This document shows, piece after piece, positions 52,848 to 62,303 of a DNA stretch of 64,000 nucleotides; positions within the stretch are counted from its first letter, which is position 1, and each line of letters opens with the position of its first letter. This DNA is from Phycisphaerae bacterium (GTDB lineage: Bacteria > Planctomycetota > Phycisphaerae > Sedimentisphaerales > Anaerohalosphaeraceae). Where the stretch lies: the NCBI GenBank assembly GCA_012729675.1, contig JAAYCR010000031.1, positions 1 to 64,000 on the forward strand, given 5' to 3'. Under the pieces are notes generated by a model. It was not told the origin of the DNA and searched no databases. It saw only the letters and a program-made list of their open reading frames with translations. Made by a program: the position numbers and the translations under genes.

Positions 52848-53402
52848 TTACAGCGAACGACGGCGACGCAGGAAACCAACCAAAGTCGTGCCGATCCCGG
52901 CCAGCAGGATCGCACCCGGTGCGGGAACAACCACCGGTGCTGCTGCTTGTTCGACAAGCGTAGTACTATTGTATGTGGCGGACAGGGTACTTGTCAGCAC
53001 TGTCGTGTAATCCAGCCAGTCAAAGCAGTAGTCGTGCCGGAACGTGATGGACGCCGTCGTCGGCGTTGAGGCCAGAAACGCGGTCAACATCGCCTCGTTG
53101 TCCGCGCTGGAAAACACCGTTTCGTTGGAGGTCAGTATTCCCAGCTCTTCCCCATTCAGTATGATCGAAATATTGTCATCCCATGCGTTGAAGTCTTTGA
53201 CCTTAATGGTCAGGGTGGCATCGGTGATCTCACCGAGCGCCTCTTCAGGCACTTGGTGATGCCACGTCGTGCTGTCGCTCCAAGACCCCAGAACAGTGTC
53301 CCAGATTGTGACGTTGATGTTCTGCGTGTCGGTAAAGGTCTCGGCAGCGAGAGCCGGCAACGCCAACGCAACCATCATTGCAAGAATCACTCCCTTTTTC
53401 AT
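52848..53402 (-). CDS. Exported protein with PEP-CTERM-type sorting tail
   Basis: 184 aa. Signal peptide KKGVILAMMVALALPALA. The middle is a beta-rich domain with an aromatic TWDTVLGSWSDSTTWHHQVP-like stretch (written loosely) and acidic turns. The C-terminus VPAPGAILLAGIGTTLVGFL followed by RRRR is a PEP-CTERM-type signal: a Pro-containing motif, a hydrophobic helix and an Arg cluster. Such proteins are processed by exosortase and often exported to the surface or matrix. Ligand unknown. Confidence 0.8.
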   Translation of the reverse strand: MKKGVILAMMVALALPALAAETFTDTQNINVTIWDTVLGSWSDSTTWHHQVPEEALGEITDATLTIKVKDFNAWDDNISIILNGEELGILTSNETVFSSADNEAMLTAFLASTPTTASITFRHDYCFDWLDYTTVLTSTLSATYNSTTLVEQAAAPVVVPAPGAILLAGIGTTLVGFLRRRRSL

Positions 53403-53755: not shown

Positions 53756-54676
53756 TCAACGACAGACACGAAAGCCGAGATATCTGTACATACCGGCTGA
53801 TCTGGCGGGTGTTTTCGAATCAATCACACAAAAGGTTTCATTAGCAAACCACCATCCACCTTTTGTGGCGAAGGAAGTTTCATCGTTATCCCCTACTGTG
53901 GTCGTCCATTCCTGGACGTTTCCGGCCAAATCGGCCATTCCGTAGCCATAGTAGCCAAAACCTCCAACGGACGTTGTGCCGTCCGGATGATCGCTGCCAA
54001 GATAATTGGCCTTCGTATTGTCAATCGTCTCCCCGCATCCATAAATGAAGTTTCCATAATAATTTGCAACTCCCTGCCATTCTTCCTCGGTCGGCAACCG
54101 CCAGCCGTAGTAATCGGCAAACATGGACGCACCATATAAACTGACATAGGTGACGGGGTGATCTTCGAAGCCGCTGGCAACTGTGAATATACCGTCATTA
54201 TGGATAATTCGGGAAGCTCCGCCATCGGTAACTACATCTTCCGGCTTTCCCGGCCCGTTGAGCTGATACAGGCGTTTCCCTTGGTATTCGCCGGCGGCTG
54301 CGATGATGTAATTCGGATCGGCGGGATCGACAATGATGTCGCCGGAATGCAGTGCGGTATTGAGGAATTGGGCGTATTGGGCGTTGGTGGTCTCGTAACG
54401 GCTCATTTCGCCGACGAAATTGGGGTCTTCGATGGCGACCCACGTGATGTCGGGCAAGCCCTCGGTCAGCCATTGCTCGGCCAAGGCGGCAAGGTCGTCC
54501 ATGTCGTACACTGAAATCCAGTCCTTCGCCAGAAGGGCGAAGTCGTGCAGATCCACCCGGCAGTTGCCGGTTAAATCCATTGACGGACACGCCGCCCCCA
54601 GAAGGCCGCTGAGGCAGAACACGGCCGCAACAATCAAGGCCGATGATCGCAGTTTAATACCGTTGAACCTGTTCAT
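53756..54676 (-). CDS. Exported formylglycine-generating-enzyme-like protein with dockerin-like repeat
   Basis: 306 aa. Signal peptide, then a dockerin-like Ca-binding segment (about 32-66) of the pattern DLTGNCRVDLHDFALLAKDW. The FGE-sulfatase fold follows (about 80-306): MSRYETTNAQYAQFLN, HPVTYVSLYGASMFADYYGW, RLPTEEEWQGVA, MADLAGNVQEWT and the terminal LGFRVCR. Catalytic FGE activity needs a specific Cys pair that I do not see clearly, so a structural or binding role is also possible. This domain pairing is characteristic of Phycisphaerae-type planctomycetes. Confidence 0.88.
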   Translation of the reverse strand: MNRFNGIKLRSSALIVAAVFCLSGLLGAACPSMDLTGNCRVDLHDFALLAKDWISVYDMDDLAALAEQWLTEGLPDITWVAIEDPNFVGEMSRYETTNAQYAQFLNTALHSGDIIVDPADPNYIIAAAGEYQGKRLYQLNGPGKPEDVVTDGGASRIIHNDGIFTVASGFEDHPVTYVSLYGASMFADYYGWRLPTEEEWQGVANYYGNFIYGCGETIDNTKANYLGSDHPDGTTSVGGFGYYGYGMADLAGNVQEWTTTVGDNDETSFATKGGWWFANETFCVIDSKTPARSAGMYRYLGFRVCR

Positions 54677-54976: not shown

Positions 54977-56509
54977 ATGACCGGCGTTGAACCACTTTCT
55001 GAATGCACTCCGCCCTCGGCCTTTTGGGGTCGGGGGGAGATCGTGTTTGCGGCCGCGGCGTGTGCGCTGGCGGCGGGGGTGCTGATTCCGATGCCGGAAC
55101 TGCTGCTGGATATTTTGTGGGGGGTGGTCCTGAGTTTGACGTTGGGGGCGGGGCTGTTTTTTCCGGCCGCGGCCAGTACGGCGGACTTGAAGGGGTTTGC
55201 CGCGATGCTGTCGGGGCCGGCGCTATTGCGCATCGGGCTTGCGGGGGCGGTGTGTGTGCGGTTGACGAGCAATGCGCCGGCGGGCTTGCTGATCCCGGCG
55301 ACAGGCAGTGTGCTGACGGACGGCTGGCCGCTGGGGGCGGCGATCGTGTGTCTTGTCGCGGCGATGTTATTGGTGGTCGCGCTGTTCGGGGCGTGTCAAC
55401 GGATTGCCATTTCGGCCTTTCGCTACAAGCAGCGGATTTATCCGCTCAAATATGTGGGGATCGAGACGGATGTCAAGCTGGGTGTGATCACCGCCGCGCA
55501 GGCGCGGACGCTGGTCGAGCGGGTGGATGCGGAGGCGCGATTGTTTGCGAATTTGACGGGGGCGTCTTTATTGATGCGGGCCGAGGGGGTCATCGAGGTT
55601 GGCGCGGTGCTGGTCTGCCTGATGTGGTCGTTCGGGGGCACCGAACGCATCGCTCCAGCGGCGGCCTCGGCAGTCGGGCTGACGGTTTTCAGTCTTGTGC
55701 CGGCGTTTGTCTCGGCGCTGGCGGGGGCGTATCTGGCGGGGAAGGATTCATTAACGCTGCGCACTGCGCCGACGGAAAAGGAAACCGCGGGGCGCACCTT
55801 TACGCTGGTCGATCAGGAGACCGGGCAGGCCGAAGAGGTCGAATTGCTGAATCCGGATTTTGTGCGTCATCCGCGGCAGGCTCGCGGTGCTGTTGCCGAT
55901 GAGCGGCTTGCGGAATTTGAGCCGGAGCGGGCGGCTGTACTGATGGAAACCCTTTCGCTTTCGGCCGATTCGCCGCATTTGTATTATCGGCAGCTTGCGG
56001 GGGCGGTTTTGAATGCTTCGGCGGCGGCGCGAGTGGTGGTGTTTGCGGCCCGGCAGGTGCGGCAGTTGCCGGTGACGGTTTTTGTCAATACGGCGATTCA
56101 GTTGGCGCGCGAGGGGCAAAAAATACTGCTGGTGGACGCCGACACGCGGCGTAATGCCCTGGCGCAGGTGTTTGAGGCGGACGCCGTGCACTACAACACG
56201 GCCGCTCAGCCGACGGGGTTTGAGGGGCTGGATTTATACGGGGTCGGCGGGGACGCGGAGCGTGTGAAGGCGACGCTGGCCGAGGCGGCGGGGGGGTATG
56301 CGTGTGTGCTGATTTATGCACCGGATGCGGAGGTGCAGCAGATACTGAAAGACGCTCTGTTTGATTTGCAGACTGCCGCGTTTATGTTCGGCGTTAAAGA
56401 AGGCGAGTCGACCGGGCAGATCGCTGCGCCTTTGGGTTACTGCCAACGGCTGTTTTTGGTGTCAGAACCGCCGATGCAGACATCGCCGCATCAGGACGCC
56501 GCCGGTTAG
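54977..56509 (+). CDS. FlhA-like membrane domain fused to a degenerate P-loop (BY-kinase/ParA-like) domain
   Basis: 510 aa. The N-terminal half has about six hydrophobic segments. The first, IPMPELLLDILWGVVLSLTL, resembles the FlhA start. The loop QRIAISAFRYKQRIYPLKY, then VGIETDVKLGVITAAQARTL, then FANLTGASLLMRAEG follows the FHIPEP cytoplasmic loop of FlhA, the flagellar export gate. Residues about 340-500 resemble BY-kinase or MinD/FlhG-type ATPases: FVNTAIQLAREGQKILLVDADTRRNALAQVF (shown in part) has the Walker A' LLVDAD near 385. The Gly-Lys Walker A is missing (AARQVRQLPVT in its place). It ends convergently on fliD, overlapping by three bases. It is not a normal FlhA, and the function is unknown. 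Confidence 0.7.
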   Translation: MTGVEPLSECTPPSAFWGRGEIVFAAAACALAAGVLIPMPELLLDILWGVVLSLTLGAGLFFPAAASTADLKGFAAMLSGPALLRIGLAGAVCVRLTSNAPAGLLIPATGSVLTDGWPLGAAIVCLVAAMLLVVALFGACQRIAISAFRYKQRIYPLKYVGIETDVKLGVITAAQARTLVERVDAEARLFANLTGASLLMRAEGVIEVGAVLVCLMWSFGGTERIAPAAASAVGLTVFSLVPAFVSALAGAYLAGKDSLTLRTAPTEKETAGRTFTLVDQETGQAEEVELLNPDFVRHPRQARGAVADERLAEFEPERAAVLMETLSLSADSPHLYYRQLAGAVLNASAAARVVVFAARQVRQLPVTVFVNTAIQLAREGQKILLVDADTRRNALAQVFEADAVHYNTAAQPTGFEGLDLYGVGGDAERVKATLAEAAGGYACVLIYAPDAEVQQILKDALFDLQTAAFMFGVKEGESTGQIAAPLGYCQRLFLVSEPPMQTSPHQDAAG

Positions 56510-58599
56510 AGCATTCCCAGGCCGGAGAATTGCTGCTGGATGGTTGTCATCAGTCTTTCCATGCGGGCGTACTGGTTCGTGAGTCTGCTCTGGACGCGTT
56601 CCAGGCGTGCCTCTTCCTGTTCGATCCGCTTGTTGAGGTTGGAGATTTGGCTGTCGATGCTGCGAATTGAGACGCTGGTGCGGCCGGATTGGATGTCGGT
56701 GGCGCTGTTGGCCAAGTCTTGCAGATTGCCGGCAAAGCCCTGACGGATGTTAATAGAGGCCTCAAGCGTGCGGCCGGTTTGGGTGGTGTCGATGACAATC
56801 TGCAAGTCCATTTCCGGGTTTCGGGCGTTCAGGTCGCCGCTTACGCCGAAGACATAACTGCCGCTGAATTCGGCGTCTCTGGCTTGTGCCCAGTCTTCGT
56901 CGGCCAGTTTGATCTGTGCGGAGGTGATGTTGCCTTCGGCGTCGATTTCGACGTGGACGTCGAATGTGCCGGCCTGCGTGTATTGGCTAGAGTTGTGAAA
57001 TTTGACGAAGGCGGCGTCGGCGCCGGTGGAGGAGCCGGTTTTTTGTGCGCCGATGAGGTTGAGAACACCTCGGTAATCTTGCGTGATGGCCTCATCGAAT
57101 TTTTCCTGATCGAGCTTGAGCATTTGGTCTGCGCCGAAGGAAAAGCCCAGGTCGCGCGGATTGATAAAGGCGTCGGAGCCGCCGAAGCCGATGGCGTTGG
57201 AAATAAACGGCGAGCGGATAATCGATCGCAGGCTGACCAGGCCGAACTCGTGAGACAGAATGCCGGAGGTGTTGGTTTCGGGGTCGTATTTTGTTTGTTC
57301 GTCAAAATACATCACGACCGCGTTGTAGGCATCCATCATCGCCTGGATGTTGCTTTTGAGGGCCTCGGTGTTACGCGTCATATTGATTTGGATGGCGTCG
57401 TGGCCGCCCTCGGCGTTGGCGGTGGTGCCGTGCAGGTTGAGCGTGACGCCGTTGATGACGTCGTCCACCGTGTTTGCACTGCGGCTGATCCAGCGTTCTT
57501 CAATGACCTGGCCGGTTTCGGAATCCACGATGTCCGGCGGATAGTCATCGACCTTGACCAGCGAATCCTGTGCGCGTTGGGTTTCCAGAAAAGTGGACGG
57601 GGCAAAGGCGGCGATGTCGGCGTTAATGCTGCCGCCCTGTGCGGTTTGATTGAAGGCCAGCACGGCCGTTTCGGTATCGGTGTTGAAACTGACCGACAGC
57701 GCCATCTGGCTTACGCCGGTGGTTTTGTCGATAATTTTGAGCTGGCCTTCGTCCAGCGTGACTTTTACGGTATCGCCGAAGGCGGCTTCGATCTCGCCGA
57801 TCAGGTCTTCCACGGTTGTGTAAGGGTTGACCGAGACGGTTGTGTTGACGGCCGTGCCGTCGTTGAGCGCACCGGCGATGGCGACCTCGTTGACATTTCG
57901 GAAATTGATGTCCTGCCCCGAAAAATCCGTCAGCTCCGACAGTTTGCCGGTCAGCGTCGCGTTGACGCCGCGTATTGTCAGCAGGGAGGCGGCGGTGTGT
58001 ACTTCGGCGTTGCTGGTGTGGATCGCGATCTGGAAGTCCGTGCCGCTTTCTCGACCGTTGAGGACGAGGTGAAACGGATTGCCGCTGCCGTCGTCGTACT
58101 TGAGGATGCCGGCGTTGACGCCGGGGTTCTTCGGGTCGTTGTTGATCATATTGACCATATCCTGAAGCGTCGTCGTGTCATTGGTCTGGATGATTACTTC
58201 CTGATTGTTGTAGGAGAAGATGAAGGTTCCGGTCCCGACGTAGGACGTGGCGTATTTGAAGCCGTCGTGGACCCAGCGGTTGGCGGTGGCCAATTGCTTG
58301 ATCTTAACCGAATGGCTGCTTTCGTTGGCGCCGGCTGCAGCTGAGATGCTGAGTTTGTCGCTGTTGCTGCTGGTGGCGTTGTAGGCGCGCAGTTGGCTGG
58401 CGTTGCTCAAGGCGCCCAAGGCGCTCTTGAAAGCATTGAGCTTGGACTGCAATTCATTGACGGCGGTGCGGGTTTCTTTCCGCTTGGCGATGCTCGATTC
58501 GAACATCGTCAGCCGTCGCCGTTCCACCTGCATCAGTTGGGCGACGATGGTTGCTGTGTCCAGTCCCGTCGATAGGCCGGGTAATTGTATGCTTGCCAT
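56506..58599 (-). CDS. fliD: Flagellar hook-associated protein 2 (filament cap)
   Basis: 697 aa. N-terminal D0/D1 region IQLPGLSTGLDTATIVAQLM, then VERRRLTMFESSIAKRKETR, a FliD_N domain with coiled coil. A central variable part and the FliD_C domain follow. The C-terminus has the coiled coil IDSQISNLNKRIEQEEARLE, then RVQSRLTNQYARMERLM and the ending QQFSGLGML. The cap protein sits at the filament tip and folds flagellin. Neighbouring genes include the FlhA-like fusion and a surface-glycan operon. Confidence 0.94.
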   Translation of the reverse strand: MASIQLPGLSTGLDTATIVAQLMQVERRRLTMFESSIAKRKETRTAVNELQSKLNAFKSALGALSNASQLRAYNATSSNSDKLSISAAAGANESSHSVKIKQLATANRWVHDGFKYATSYVGTGTFIFSYNNQEVIIQTNDTTTLQDMVNMINNDPKNPGVNAGILKYDDGSGNPFHLVLNGRESGTDFQIAIHTSNAEVHTAASLLTIRGVNATLTGKLSELTDFSGQDINFRNVNEVAIAGALNDGTAVNTTVSVNPYTTVEDLIGEIEAAFGDTVKVTLDEGQLKIIDKTTGVSQMALSVSFNTDTETAVLAFNQTAQGGSINADIAAFAPSTFLETQRAQDSLVKVDDYPPDIVDSETGQVIEERWISRSANTVDDVINGVTLNLHGTTANAEGGHDAIQINMTRNTEALKSNIQAMMDAYNAVVMYFDEQTKYDPETNTSGILSHEFGLVSLRSIIRSPFISNAIGFGGSDAFINPRDLGFSFGADQMLKLDQEKFDEAITQDYRGVLNLIGAQKTGSSTGADAAFVKFHNSSQYTQAGTFDVHVEIDAEGNITSAQIKLADEDWAQARDAEFSGSYVFGVSGDLNARNPEMDLQIVIDTTQTGRTLEASINIRQGFAGNLQDLANSATDIQSGRTSVSIRSIDSQISNLNKRIEQEEARLERVQSRLTNQYARMERLMTTIQQQFSGLGML

Positions 58600-58841: not shown

Positions 58842-61800
58842 TCACGAAGACACCACAATCGGCCGGACGATCTGACACGGCCATTGAGACTGTTCGGCAA
58901 CCCACCGCTGCTGAATGCGTCGAGCGGCCTGGGCAAAAAATTCACCCCCGCGCCCGGCGTGCCGTTTGGCATGGGCCAAAAAAACAGTTGTCACATATCT
59001 CAAAAATACCGCTTGGCGCTGTTCCGGCTCAACTGTTGTCAACTCTGGATAGAGGACCTCGGGCCGATAGCAGGTCAGCATCGCTTCCAGCACCTCGGCG
59101 GTGATTTTGTTGCGGGGTGCCATCCGGCGGCTGATGCTGTCAGGACGGACGCGATACAGGTAGCCGCTGACGCCGTCGGCCCGTTTAAAACGAATCTTGA
59201 GGGCATTACGCGCCAGAAAATCATAGTCTTCGACGGTTTCAATTTCCCGATATTCCCCCACTATGCCGAACATCGTGCGCTGTCGAAGTGAGCCGGGGGC
59301 GGGGATCGGGGAAAAGGCATTCAGAAACAGAAATGCGGGCAAGCTATTCGAATCTTCAAAATTCCTGTAAGACCATGTTTCCGGTTGAACGTTCCCATGT
59401 GAGTCCATCAATTTCATTTCGGCCTGATAATAATAATCATAACCCGGATTTCGCCATACAAAATCAACCATTTTTTCGAGATAATCCGGTTCTATGCAAT
59501 CATCCGAATCGATAATCATCTCAAAGTTTCCGCACATTTCGAGAATTGCCCGGTTGCGGGCGGCTGCGGCGTTTTTGTGCGGCAGCGTAATCAGTCGAAT
59601 CCTGTCATCGTCAAAGGATTGGACGATTTCCGTCGTTCTGTCGGTGCTACCGTCGTCCACAACAATCAGTTCAAAAAATTTGTAGGTTTGATCCAATACC
59701 GAACGCACGGCTTGAGCAATATATTGCTCTGCATTGTACGCAGTCATCGTGATGCTGATCTTCGGAATTTTTAAAGTTTGTATAGAGTTTTTTATGTCAT
59801 CCAAAAATTTAAGCCACTTTGACTCGCTGAGCAGTTCGTGCTTTTTGAATATTTGAATCAGCCGGTTGATATCATATTCCACCAGCATCGTCATAACAAA
59901 ATCGTTATCGCTTACCTGCAGCGTATTATCCGCTGCTTTGATTTCAGCGAGGAGCAATTCTTTGTTTCGCTCTATCAGATTGTACAGCAGCAGCACATGC
60001 GTATCTTTTTGAATTGCTTCATCAACAAAGGATCTGAAAATCTGATCTGGGCTTTTGCGACATTTTCTGGCAAGTTTTCGACTGCGTCGTTTGTAGGCGT
60101 GGATCTTTACGCGTGCCCAGAACAGCCACCCTTCCTGCTGTTTGCTTTCACCCCGACATTGCGATTGAGGTACCATCCGAACGTTGTACAGGACATCCGG
60201 GACGAAGAAAAGGGAGGTTACTTCCTCCATTTTATGAATGATGTCTTTATCTTCGGCCAGAGGCAGACTGGGGTTATGCATTTCCGTTCGCATATAATCA
60301 GCAATCTTGTAAGTTCGAAATGCGCCGATTACGTCATATCTCAGTGTGGAACCTCCTTGCGGAAAAGCCCTGCAAAATCCCGCCTTGACCGGGTTCATCT
60401 GTTCGTCGCAGAATTGGTGTTGGCTGTAAATAAACCCGCACTCGGGGTGCTCTCGGTGTGCTTGAACCATCTTTGCAACAGCATCCGGAGCCAGTGTGTC
60501 ATCGCTGTCCAGTTCGCCGAATATCTCAGCGCTGCAATTGGCGACGCCGGTCAGTACCGCCGTCGAAACCCCCTGATTTGTATCATGTCGAACCAATTTG
60601 ATGCGTGGATTCTGCAAATATTTCTTAATAATCGCCATAGAATCATCAGTGGACACATCGTCGACAATGACCATTTCCCAATTTTGAAATGTCTGGGCCA
60701 GCACGGATTCAATCGCCTGTCCAATGTACGGGGCTTTATTGTAATTTCGCATAATGATTGAAAACGCCGGCGACTGAGTTTGAGTTTCGGTTTTTCGTTC
60801 ACCTGTTTTGTGTGCGGGATTTCCAGCCCATATCTCATAGTCGGGGATATTAGTGGTAACCGCTGCGCCGGCGCCGATAACGGCTCCGTTGCCGACGGTC
60901 ACGCCGTCAAGGATTATTGCGTTGGCGCCTATCCAGACATCGTCTCCGATTTTTATACCTTTGTATGTGTTTGGCTGTTCCCTGATTTTTTTATCCTTGA
61001 TGATGCCGTGATTCTGCGCAAAGATCGATACGCCCGGACTGATCAATACATCCCTGCCGATGGTGATGCCGCCCTGACCGTGAAAAATACAGTTATACCC
61101 AATCGAAACCCGGTCGCCTATTTGGATTGTTCCCGTACAGGTTCTTAAGATGACATTATGCCGGATTCGAACCTGGTTGCCGATATGGATGCTTCCGCCG
61201 TGCTCCTCGTACCCGATGTTGGCTTGCGGGGAGATGTCGCATCCCCGTCCGATAGTGATATGGCTGATACCGGGTGCGATGTTGAGTTTGGTTTTCAGCT
61301 CGGAAACCGATGCCGCGTTAACACTCTGCGTTGGCTGCGGCGTAGTGATGGCGGAATCGGGCCGAACCGATTCTTTTGGAAAGACCGACTGCACAAATTT
61401 CAGAATGCCGTCAACACGATTAGTGATATCGTGGCTTTCTGTACACCGCTTAAATAATTTCTCGGCCGCCGCCGCTCGCAGCAGCGTATTTGCCAAATAT
61501 CGTTTGACCAGTTCCAAAAGCTCCTTCTCGCTGGTATAGGTCAATATCTCATCTTCGTTGAACAGCCTGAATACTTCCGGGCGGCGTCGTGTAATAACGG
61601 GTATACCGCAGGCCCCGTATTCCAGCATACGATGCGCCAAAGGCGAGAAGGTGTCCTGAATATCCAGTCCAATTTTACTTCGGCAGATGATTTCTTTGAA
61701 TTGATCTCCGGTAATCGAGCTGTAATTGTTGGGATGTTGAGGCCATCCGTCTCCAAAGGCCATAACGCGAATTCCATTATCCCGGAGCATGTTTGCGATT

Positions 61801-62303
61801 TTGATCCTCATGTCGGGATCGCTGAATCGCTGATGCGTGCCGACGCCAATAATGGATACATCGATATCCTGTTGGATATCCATTTTATGGTGGTAATTGC
61901 GATCGCACGCAGTGGGATTGTAGTGCATCGGAATCAGATGCCGGTACTTGATCAGTGTATCATAGTGATTGACGATATAGGCGTCGTAGGATGCAAATCG
62001 ATCTTCGCTGAAGTAATACGGGTCGGAAAACCCGAAGCCGATCACAGGAACCGTAAGTTTCTTTTTGACGTCTATCGGCAGCCGCAGGTTGGAATGGGCC
62101 AGCCAGATTTGATCCGGGTTATGTTCGGCGCATAATTGTAACAACGGATGGTCCGAACCGTTTGCGGCGTTTTCGCCAGCGTCCAGCAGCATTTTATCGA
62201 GCCAGATGACTGAGTGTCCCCGCAGTTTAACCTCTTCGTAAATGGACCGCTTGGTTCCCCAGTTGGACCATGTGTAATTGTCTGAAAAATACAATATCCT
62301 CAT
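58842..62303 (-). CDS. Four-domain glycosyltransferase/acyltransferase protein
   Basis: 1153 aa. Domain 1 (1 to about 310): CgeB-like family glycosyltransferase, with GVGTHQRFSDPDMR and the donor-site region SPLAHRMLEYGACGIPVITR. Domain 2 (about 340-500): left-handed beta-helix hexapeptide acyltransferase, with ISPQANIGYEEHGGSIHIGN, then VWIGANAIILDGVTVGNGAV. Domain 3 (about 510-730): GT2, with FSIIMRNYNKAPYIGQAIES and the DxD-like ELDSDDTLAP. Domain 4 (about 845-1120): GT2, with ISITMTAYNAEQYIAQAVRS and IDSDDCIEPDY. One chain could build and acylate a short glycan. The position next to fliD suggests flagellin or surface-layer glycosylation. It overlaps the upstream methyltransferase gene by ATGA. 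Confidence 0.85.
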   Translation of the reverse strand: MRILYFSDNYTWSNWGTKRSIYEEVKLRGHSVIWLDKMLLDAGENAANGSDHPLLQLCAEHNPDQIWLAHSNLRLPIDVKKKLTVPVIGFGFSDPYYFSEDRFASYDAYIVNHYDTLIKYRHLIPMHYNPTACDRNYHHKMDIQQDIDVSIIGVGTHQRFSDPDMRIKIANMLRDNGIRVMAFGDGWPQHPNNYSSITGDQFKEIICRSKIGLDIQDTFSPLAHRMLEYGACGIPVITRRRPEVFRLFNEDEILTYTSEKELLELVKRYLANTLLRAAAAEKLFKRCTESHDITNRVDGILKFVQSVFPKESVRPDSAITTPQPTQSVNAASVSELKTKLNIAPGISHITIGRGCDISPQANIGYEEHGGSIHIGNQVRIRHNVILRTCTGTIQIGDRVSIGYNCIFHGQGGITIGRDVLISPGVSIFAQNHGIIKDKKIREQPNTYKGIKIGDDVWIGANAIILDGVTVGNGAVIGAGAAVTTNIPDYEIWAGNPAHKTGERKTETQTQSPAFSIIMRNYNKAPYIGQAIESVLAQTFQNWEMVIVDDVSTDDSMAIIKKYLQNPRIKLVRHDTNQGVSTAVLTGVANCSAEIFGELDSDDTLAPDAVAKMVQAHREHPECGFIYSQHQFCDEQMNPVKAGFCRAFPQGGSTLRYDVIGAFRTYKIADYMRTEMHNPSLPLAEDKDIIHKMEEVTSLFFVPDVLYNVRMVPQSQCRGESKQQEGWLFWARVKIHAYKRRSRKLARKCRKSPDQIFRSFVDEAIQKDTHVLLLYNLIERNKELLLAEIKAADNTLQVSDNDFVMTMLVEYDINRLIQIFKKHELLSESKWLKFLDDIKNSIQTLKIPKISITMTAYNAEQYIAQAVRSVLDQTYKFFELIVVDDGSTDRTTEIVQSFDDDRIRLITLPHKNAAAARNRAILEMCGNFEMIIDSDDCIEPDYLEKMVDFVWRNPGYDYYYQAEMKLMDSHGNVQPETWSYRNFEDSNSLPAFLFLNAFSPIPAPGSLRQRTMFGIVGEYREIETVEDYDFLARNALKIRFKRADGVSGYLYRVRPDSISRRMAPRNKITAEVLEAMLTCYRPEVLYPELTTVEPEQRQAVFLRYVTTVFLAHAKRHAGRGGEFFAQAARRIQQRWVAEQSQWPCQIVRPIVVSS

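Follow-up and report, generated by a model that had tools for sequence, protein, structure and literature searches.

An FlhA-derived membrane domain joined to a predicted BY-pseudokinase, a candidate accessory subunit of the flagellar export gate

What kind of protein begins like the flagellar export gate subunit FlhA and ends in a P-loop fold that has lost its P-loop? The question is raised by a gene at 54977..56509 (+) of the window, the whole 64,000-nucleotide stretch of Phycisphaerae DNA analysed here. Its 510-aa product, supported by the open reading frame and its translation, by 35 full-length homologues and by purifying selection, contains the stretches ETDVKLGVITAAQAR, NLTGAS and LLVDAD. 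A preliminary description of the sequence had read these as the FlhA membrane region and its cytoplasmic loop, followed by a BY-kinase/MinD-like domain in place of the FlhA cytoplasmic domain, and had proposed a gate paralogue or a pseudo-ATPase regulator of flagellar export. Public annotation pipelines, we presume, may label such fusion proteins as FHIPEP family. Searches of an open-access literature collection on FlhA paralogues, a second flhA and related topics yielded no description of an FlhA-pseudo-BY-kinase architecture, in keeping with the earlier remark that none was known; the component parts are of known kinds, and it is their combination, the operon slot and the conservation that appear to us to be new. 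An ordinary flhA or an assembly fusion was considered and rejected, because the same joint occurs in 35 genomes and a full flhA is present in the window's genome.

The origin of the first half was investigated by profile comparison. Residues 35-207 matched Pfam FHIPEP (PF00771) with an E-value of 2.8e-9 and 36.5 bits (cut-off 29.1), and a profile of 25 fusion-family members matched solved FlhA/SctV chains with E-values of 5e-42 to 5.5e-33; these matches exclude an unrelated membrane family as the source. The family-profile alignment spans FlhA residues about 21-270, which is TM1-TM6 only, and ends at about FlhA 263-274. The FlhA-like membrane region (residues 20-254; 55034..55738, +) comprises TM1-TM6 and lacks TM7-TM8; its TM4 and TM5 are separated by the FHIPEP-cup loop. 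The AlphaFold2 model gives it six long helices (20-36, 41-64, 74-97, 118-167, 173-220 and 222-254) rather than the eight TM helices of FlhA, and pLDDT at 21-250 is mostly 82-94 in 10-residue blocks, with one block at 71. TIGR01398 (FlhA) scored the window protein at 33.4 bits, its cut-off being 772, and the FlhA_C cytoplasmic ring domain is absent, a BY-kinase fold lying in its place. The FlhA membrane region claimed for the first half is therefore upheld by PF00771 and the solved-chain profile as far as TM6. TM7 and TM8 are missing; in FlhA, according to the accessible text of PMC13308203, these two helices decorate an adjacent copy. Two solved full-length FlhA structures (36hw and 12dv) were compared with the membrane half by sequence only, and no FlhA was among the matches listed in structure searches of a library to April 2026. 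Within the cup, several residues are often kept among the 35 fusions (L062 numbering): P166 in 29, E196 in 29, F199 in 31, K168 in 26 and D175 in 26.

The residues by which FlhA handles protons have fared differently. The available sections of PMC13308203 place R85, R94, N137, R147, R154, D158, D199, D208, D249 and Q254 in the proton path or inner charge ring of FlhA, and those of PMC3139655 name D45, K203 and R270, with Asp-208 as the only essential acidic residue. These residues are conserved in 30/30 FlhAs of the order, the departures being Gln at position 137, Lys or Arg at position 270 and, in one protein, Lys for R94. Counts for the fusions were taken from the 35 longer than 430 aa (G003, G006, G013, G143, G110 and G155 left out). 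Positions 137 and D249 are kept in none of them (0/35 each), acidic D199 in one, R154 in four, D158 and Q254 in nine each, R147 in 13 and K203 in 18; D208 is kept in nine, with Glu in 10 more. R85 is retained in 24/35, R94 in 20/35 (Lys in 13), D45 in 33/35, and the R270 position is Lys or Arg in 33/35. Compared with FlhA/SctV (PF00771, TIGR01398), the fusion is thus homologous over TM1-TM6 and the cup loop and unlike it in lacking TM7-TM8 and the ring domain, in the replacement of 137, D249 and mostly D199 and D208, and in coexisting with a full FlhA. Judged from these residues, the membrane half, which keeps structural residues of FlhA, would be an FlhA with a dead proton path.

An AlphaFold2 model of the C domain alone (pLDDT 80.5, pTM 0.81) was compared with known folds. 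The best 50 rows of a Foldseek search were BY-kinases throughout, and a second structural comparison gave BY-kinases Z scores of 13.8-16.4 over 167-186 residues (rmsd 3.3-4.8), as against 12.2 for ArsA, 11.9 for Get3, 11.1 for MinD and 10.6 for FlhG (4rz3). Pfam AAA_31 and NCBIfam eps_fam/BY-kinase gave sub-threshold matches only. The domain was placed at residues about 320-495 (55934..56461, +) from the fold matches and from an hhalign alignment to the genome's own intact BY-kinase (L006), which has GDGKTT, IDTPP and a Tyr-rich tail. With MinD and FlhG below the BY-kinases in Z score, and the hhalign match to FlhG weak, MinD/FlhG seems a less likely source of the C half; of the earlier double label, the BY-kinase part stands and the MinD-like part is the weaker.

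In the same alignment Pro365 takes the place of the Walker A Lys and Tyr447 that of the Walker B Asp. The degenerate Walker A, RQVRQLPVT (residues 359-367; 56051..56077, +), keeps the family-specific LPVT motif, and position 365 is Pro in 30 homologues and Gly in five; a full Walker A (GxxGK[ST]) was found in 0/35, and the deviant KGGxGK[ST] form of FlhG/MinD is likewise lacking in the fusion homologues. Walker A' LLVDAD (56126..56143, +) is retained, with D387 in 35/35 and D389 in 31/35, so that its survival beside a lost Walker A, as first described, is borne out. At the Walker B position, CVLIYAP (56303..56323, +), Tyr447 replaces Asp in 35/35. A Tyr-rich C-terminal tail (at least three Tyr in the last 40 aa) occurs in only 1/35. 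The invariant residues of the C half are D387, R392, F399 and Y447 (35/35 each). The conservation of D387, R392 and, in 28/35, N371 around the former site might be expected of a non-canonical nucleotide-binding enzyme in which LPVT replaces Walker A and ATP or GTP is still bound via Walker A'; with Pro or Gly at the Lys position and Tyr for the Walker B Asp throughout, such an enzyme is very improbable.

Taken together, the models predict for the C half a BY-kinase fold without catalytic motifs. With BY-kinases (Wzc, Etk, CapB, BceF, VpsO; TIGR01007) the fusion shares this fold, the Walker A' DxD and the helix before the P-loop strand; unlike them, it has no Walker A Lys, Walker B Asp, Tyr-rich tail or PCP membrane domain. 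The BY pseudokinases EcpK of Myxococcus xanthus and HfsB appear alike in having a non-catalytic BY-kinase fold, and the accessible part of PMC12004946 proposes EcpK as a scaffold for a membrane partner. EcpK differs in being a separate protein with a polysaccharide co-polymerase and in having lost Walker A' too, which the fusion keeps; the pseudokinase of the fusion is joined instead to a flagellar export-gate membrane domain.

The model of the whole protein, built with nine sequences, shows a confident helical part, a low-confidence linker and then an alpha/beta domain. Although pLDDT is below 50 over most of 259-323, the homologue alignment reveals conserved ELLNPDF and FEP motifs in the linker at residues about 287-316 (55835..55924, +). 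The pseudokinase domain also occurs in a stand-alone form, anchored by a single TM helix where the fusion has the FlhA bundle. The copy in the window's own genome (G000:C13:103440-104141; L063:7402-8169, +) is 255 aa long, and an alignment of four shows that the LPVT-type degenerate P-loop and the Walker A' of the fusion recur in it. In relatives, the neighbouring genes at two loci (L090, L091) encode a coiled-coil protein, two M16 peptidases and an SMC protein. Since the stand-alone form is found in genomes without an flhB match, such as G018 (99% complete), the pseudokinase domain is not tied to flagella as such.

The fusion itself has a characteristic genomic position. Directly upstream, on the same strand and within 400 bp, lies flhB in 30/35 cases (gaps of -53 to 360 bp), and flhB is also upstream of the homologues of G155 (48 bp) and G110 and of the cut copy of G013. 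The gene order is fliI-fliJ-(228 aa)-motA-motB-motB-fliO-fliP-fliQ-fliR-flhB-fusion, in which fliO/P/Q/R were named by Pfam at one locus and by home-made profiles at the others, fliI was named from place and length, and fliJ was sub-threshold in the Pfam-tested locus. The gene between fliJ and motA (L045:1332-2018, +) is conserved, encodes about 228 aa and has no Pfam match, and two successive motB genes follow motA at this locus. In the window's genome, contig C68 carries the operon (L088) but no fusion, the fusion having stayed with fliD on C20; because it has left the operon there, the flhB-operon position was hidden from the preliminary description. That position, after fliOPQR-flhB, is the strongest support for the reading as a gate component put forward at that time, and a gate paralogue or pseudo-ATPase is indeed the most likely kind of protein. 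A complete regular flhA, whose presence elsewhere in the genome had been suggested as a check, was found; regular flhA lies after fliL-fliM-fliN (tested in L105) and before a sigma factor gene (L105 and, in the own genome, L062). In family f5, flhB-flhA-flhF-flhG are contiguous (L132:3557-8935, +), as coordinates indicate for seven genomes (G038, G043, G047, G051, G058, G148 and G152), and in related genomes the same slot holds flhA or nothing. With flhA beside flhB in f5 and the fusion there in relatives, the fusion occupies a slot held elsewhere in the order by flhA.

The f5 gene order also bears on a control of flagellar placement or number, in which the domain would substitute for a lost FlhF/FlhG (SIMIBI) pair. 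FlhF exceeded the cut-off in only 11/161 genomes, all of family f5, so that the fusion-bearing families are without it; the fusion sits in the slot of f5 flhB-flhA-flhF-flhG, and by hhalign the C half resembles FlhG weakly (E 4.8e-6, 38 columns). The fold is nevertheless nearer to BY-kinases than to MinD or FlhG by the Z scores given above, no nucleotide switch remains, FlhF and the fusion are both lacking in many relatives, and a MinD/FlhG-type protein is present in 95/161 genomes, the window's included. Loss of both partners in fusion genomes was rejected: FlhF is absent, but loss of FlhG is not supported, because genomes with no flhB match also contain a MinD/FlhG-like protein. A role in placement is accordingly quite unlikely.

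On the other side of the fusion lies fliD (56506..58599, -; Pfam FliD_N/FliD_C), the ancestral neighbour of the slot, whose end overlaps that of the fusion by 4 bp in the tail-to-tail arrangement originally noted. A convergent fliD is found within 200 bp downstream in 27/35 cases, and five of the eight misses have less than 700 bp of downstream sequence. Direct convergent flhB and fliD were also found in 11 of 20 comparison loci (10 by panel, L114 by coordinates), which were author-chosen, 19 from the 78 flhB-bearing genomes without a recognised fusion and one from G110, described below. Since flhB and fliD adjoin convergently in relatives without the fusion too, the fliD neighbour is weak evidence, and its adjacency was rejected as a functional clue.

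The fusion is not a one-off, the question of its spread having been left to later searches: it is carried by 41/161 genomes of the order, in families f1, f2, f3, f4 and f7, and the named relatives are Planctomycetota/Phycisphaerae MAGs. The 35 full-length homologues comprise 34 with matches in both halves and G036 (489 aa); copies in G003, G006, G013 and G143 are partial, at contig ends, that of G155 was not recognised in a first order-wide search and was found in a later one, and G110 has a TM-only form. Even draws at E 1e-60, a threshold at which weak distant fusions may escape, gave 29/397 genomes in a class sample, all in the same order, and 6/392 in a phylum sample, all in the window's own family; none in either sample lay outside the order. 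A single-protein scan of genome contigs gave no match. Within the order flhB is present in 117/161 genomes, and in 39/41 carriers versus 78/120 non-carriers (Fisher p 8e-5, relatedness ignored); the two flhB-less carriers are MAGs 70% and 80% complete. The fusion is absent from 78/117 flhB-bearing genomes; with so many flagellated relatives doing without it, a flagellum does not require it.

Homologues share 18-37% identity with the window protein in a 25-member alignment, and the family evolves fast, with long branches in the tree. In a tree of the membrane part, by a quick method and with many long branches, one branch (SH-aLRT 100) split 36 fusion-type rows from 30 FlhAs, which fits a single paralogue family and is no proof of one origin. 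Two derivatives depart from the common form. The G155 homologue (family f2; L153:3321-4571, -) has 416 aa and lacks most of the FHIPEP cup, profile positions 143-212 being unmatched; its P-loop region reads SGDGIS-VT, P-loop-like with Ile for Lys, a stretch consistent with an origin in a functional Walker A. The G110 homologue (L125:1340-2347, +), a TM-only protein of 335 aa between flhB and fliD, has no kinase-like domain. It groups with a fusion (support 96) and has an EP-containing linker resembling the FEP motif; rather than an evolutionary intermediate, it was read from these two features as a secondary loss, with some uncertainty given the long branches. With the cup missing in one and the pseudokinase in the other, neither contact is indispensable everywhere.

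Fast evolution, absence from many relatives and these two derivatives could also be taken as signs of a decaying flhA duplicate with an acquired kinase fragment and little function left. Selection was examined with an NG86 script on close homologous pairs, and dN/dS was below 1 in both halves in 7/7 pairs (about 0.09-0.54). The frame is open in 35 genomes of four families and in one (G155) of a fifth, the C half has its invariant D387, R392, F399 and Y447, and the operon position is kept; decay is thus hardly credible.

FlhA homology, the site losses, the operon, confinement to flagellated genomes and selection together suggest that the fusion is probably an accessory component of the flagellar export gate, derived from FlhA but not conducting protons, with a pseudo-BY-kinase on the cytoplasmic side that docks a partner independently of ATP. 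In the inner membrane, the FlhA-derived part would bind to the FliPQR-FlhB / FlhA assembly, carry no protons and hold the pseudokinase under the gate, where the remodelled nucleotide pocket may form a protein-binding surface, as proposed for EcpK. The fusion would then act in gate assembly or export control, and the true FlhA, encoded elsewhere, would stay the proton-driven subunit. Counting against such a subunit are the location of the gene outside the flhB operon in the window's genome, its fast evolution and its absence in many flagellated relatives. A known accessory protein of the gate is FliO, to which the available text of PMC12248157 attributes chaperone-like effects on FlhB or FlhA. 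FliO resembles the proposed subunit in being an accessory membrane protein that is encoded in the same operon and is not part of the channel, and differs in architecture, no sequence relation to the fusion being seen.

The fusion might instead enter the FlhA ring itself, as one or more dedicated non-conducting protomers, perhaps at the FlhB contact, making the export motor deliberately asymmetric. The literature consulted regards FlhA/SctV as a single gene whose product forms a single homo-nonameric ring, and in Salmonella, according to the accessible portion of PMC13308203, one of nine identical FlhA protomers is pushed from C9 symmetry by FlhB. A protomer that gave up proton transport and the docking domain and gained a pseudokinase would encode such asymmetry in a separate gene beside flhB. 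We consider this heteromeric ring a tentative and rather unlikely possibility. If the accessory-subunit reading is true, certain flagellar export gates contain an additional subunit, the structural role of FlhA has been naturally separated from its proton-conducting and docking roles, and BY pseudokinases extend from polysaccharide export to flagellar export. The reading of the fusion is now open to comparison with the 2026 export-apparatus structures.

The kinship with polysaccharide regulators raises the alternative of a coupler to surface glycan, a link that the preliminary description had suggested along with flagellar placement. The domain derived from a BY-kinase would bind polysaccharide or glycosylation machinery and link export of the filament with glycosylation. 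BY-kinases and BY pseudokinases regulate polysaccharide co-polymerases (available sections of PMC12004946), behind fliD the window encodes a multi-domain glycosyltransferase, and ORFs of one large-protein cluster, to which that glycosyltransferase belongs by profile, lie there in 14/23 neighbourhoods. The glycosyltransferase adjoins fliD, however, and since it is found behind fliD also in the fusion-free loci L114, L117 and L129, its presence does not go with the fusion. Within the operon no gene for a PCP partner was recognised, and a glycan coupler is unlikely.

The protein behind fliD (58842-62303, -) has 1153 aa, with family-2 glycosyltransferase domains, a Glyco_trans_1_2 domain and hexapeptide repeats. 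Upstream of the fusion in the window, 53756-54676 (-) encodes an FGE-sulfatase-like domain protein, with a start that we take to be possibly dockerin-like. A secreted protein is encoded at 52848-53402 (-); it has no Pfam match at E 1e-4 and ends in VPAPGAILLAGIGTTLVGFLRRRR, presumably a PEP-CTERM-like end.
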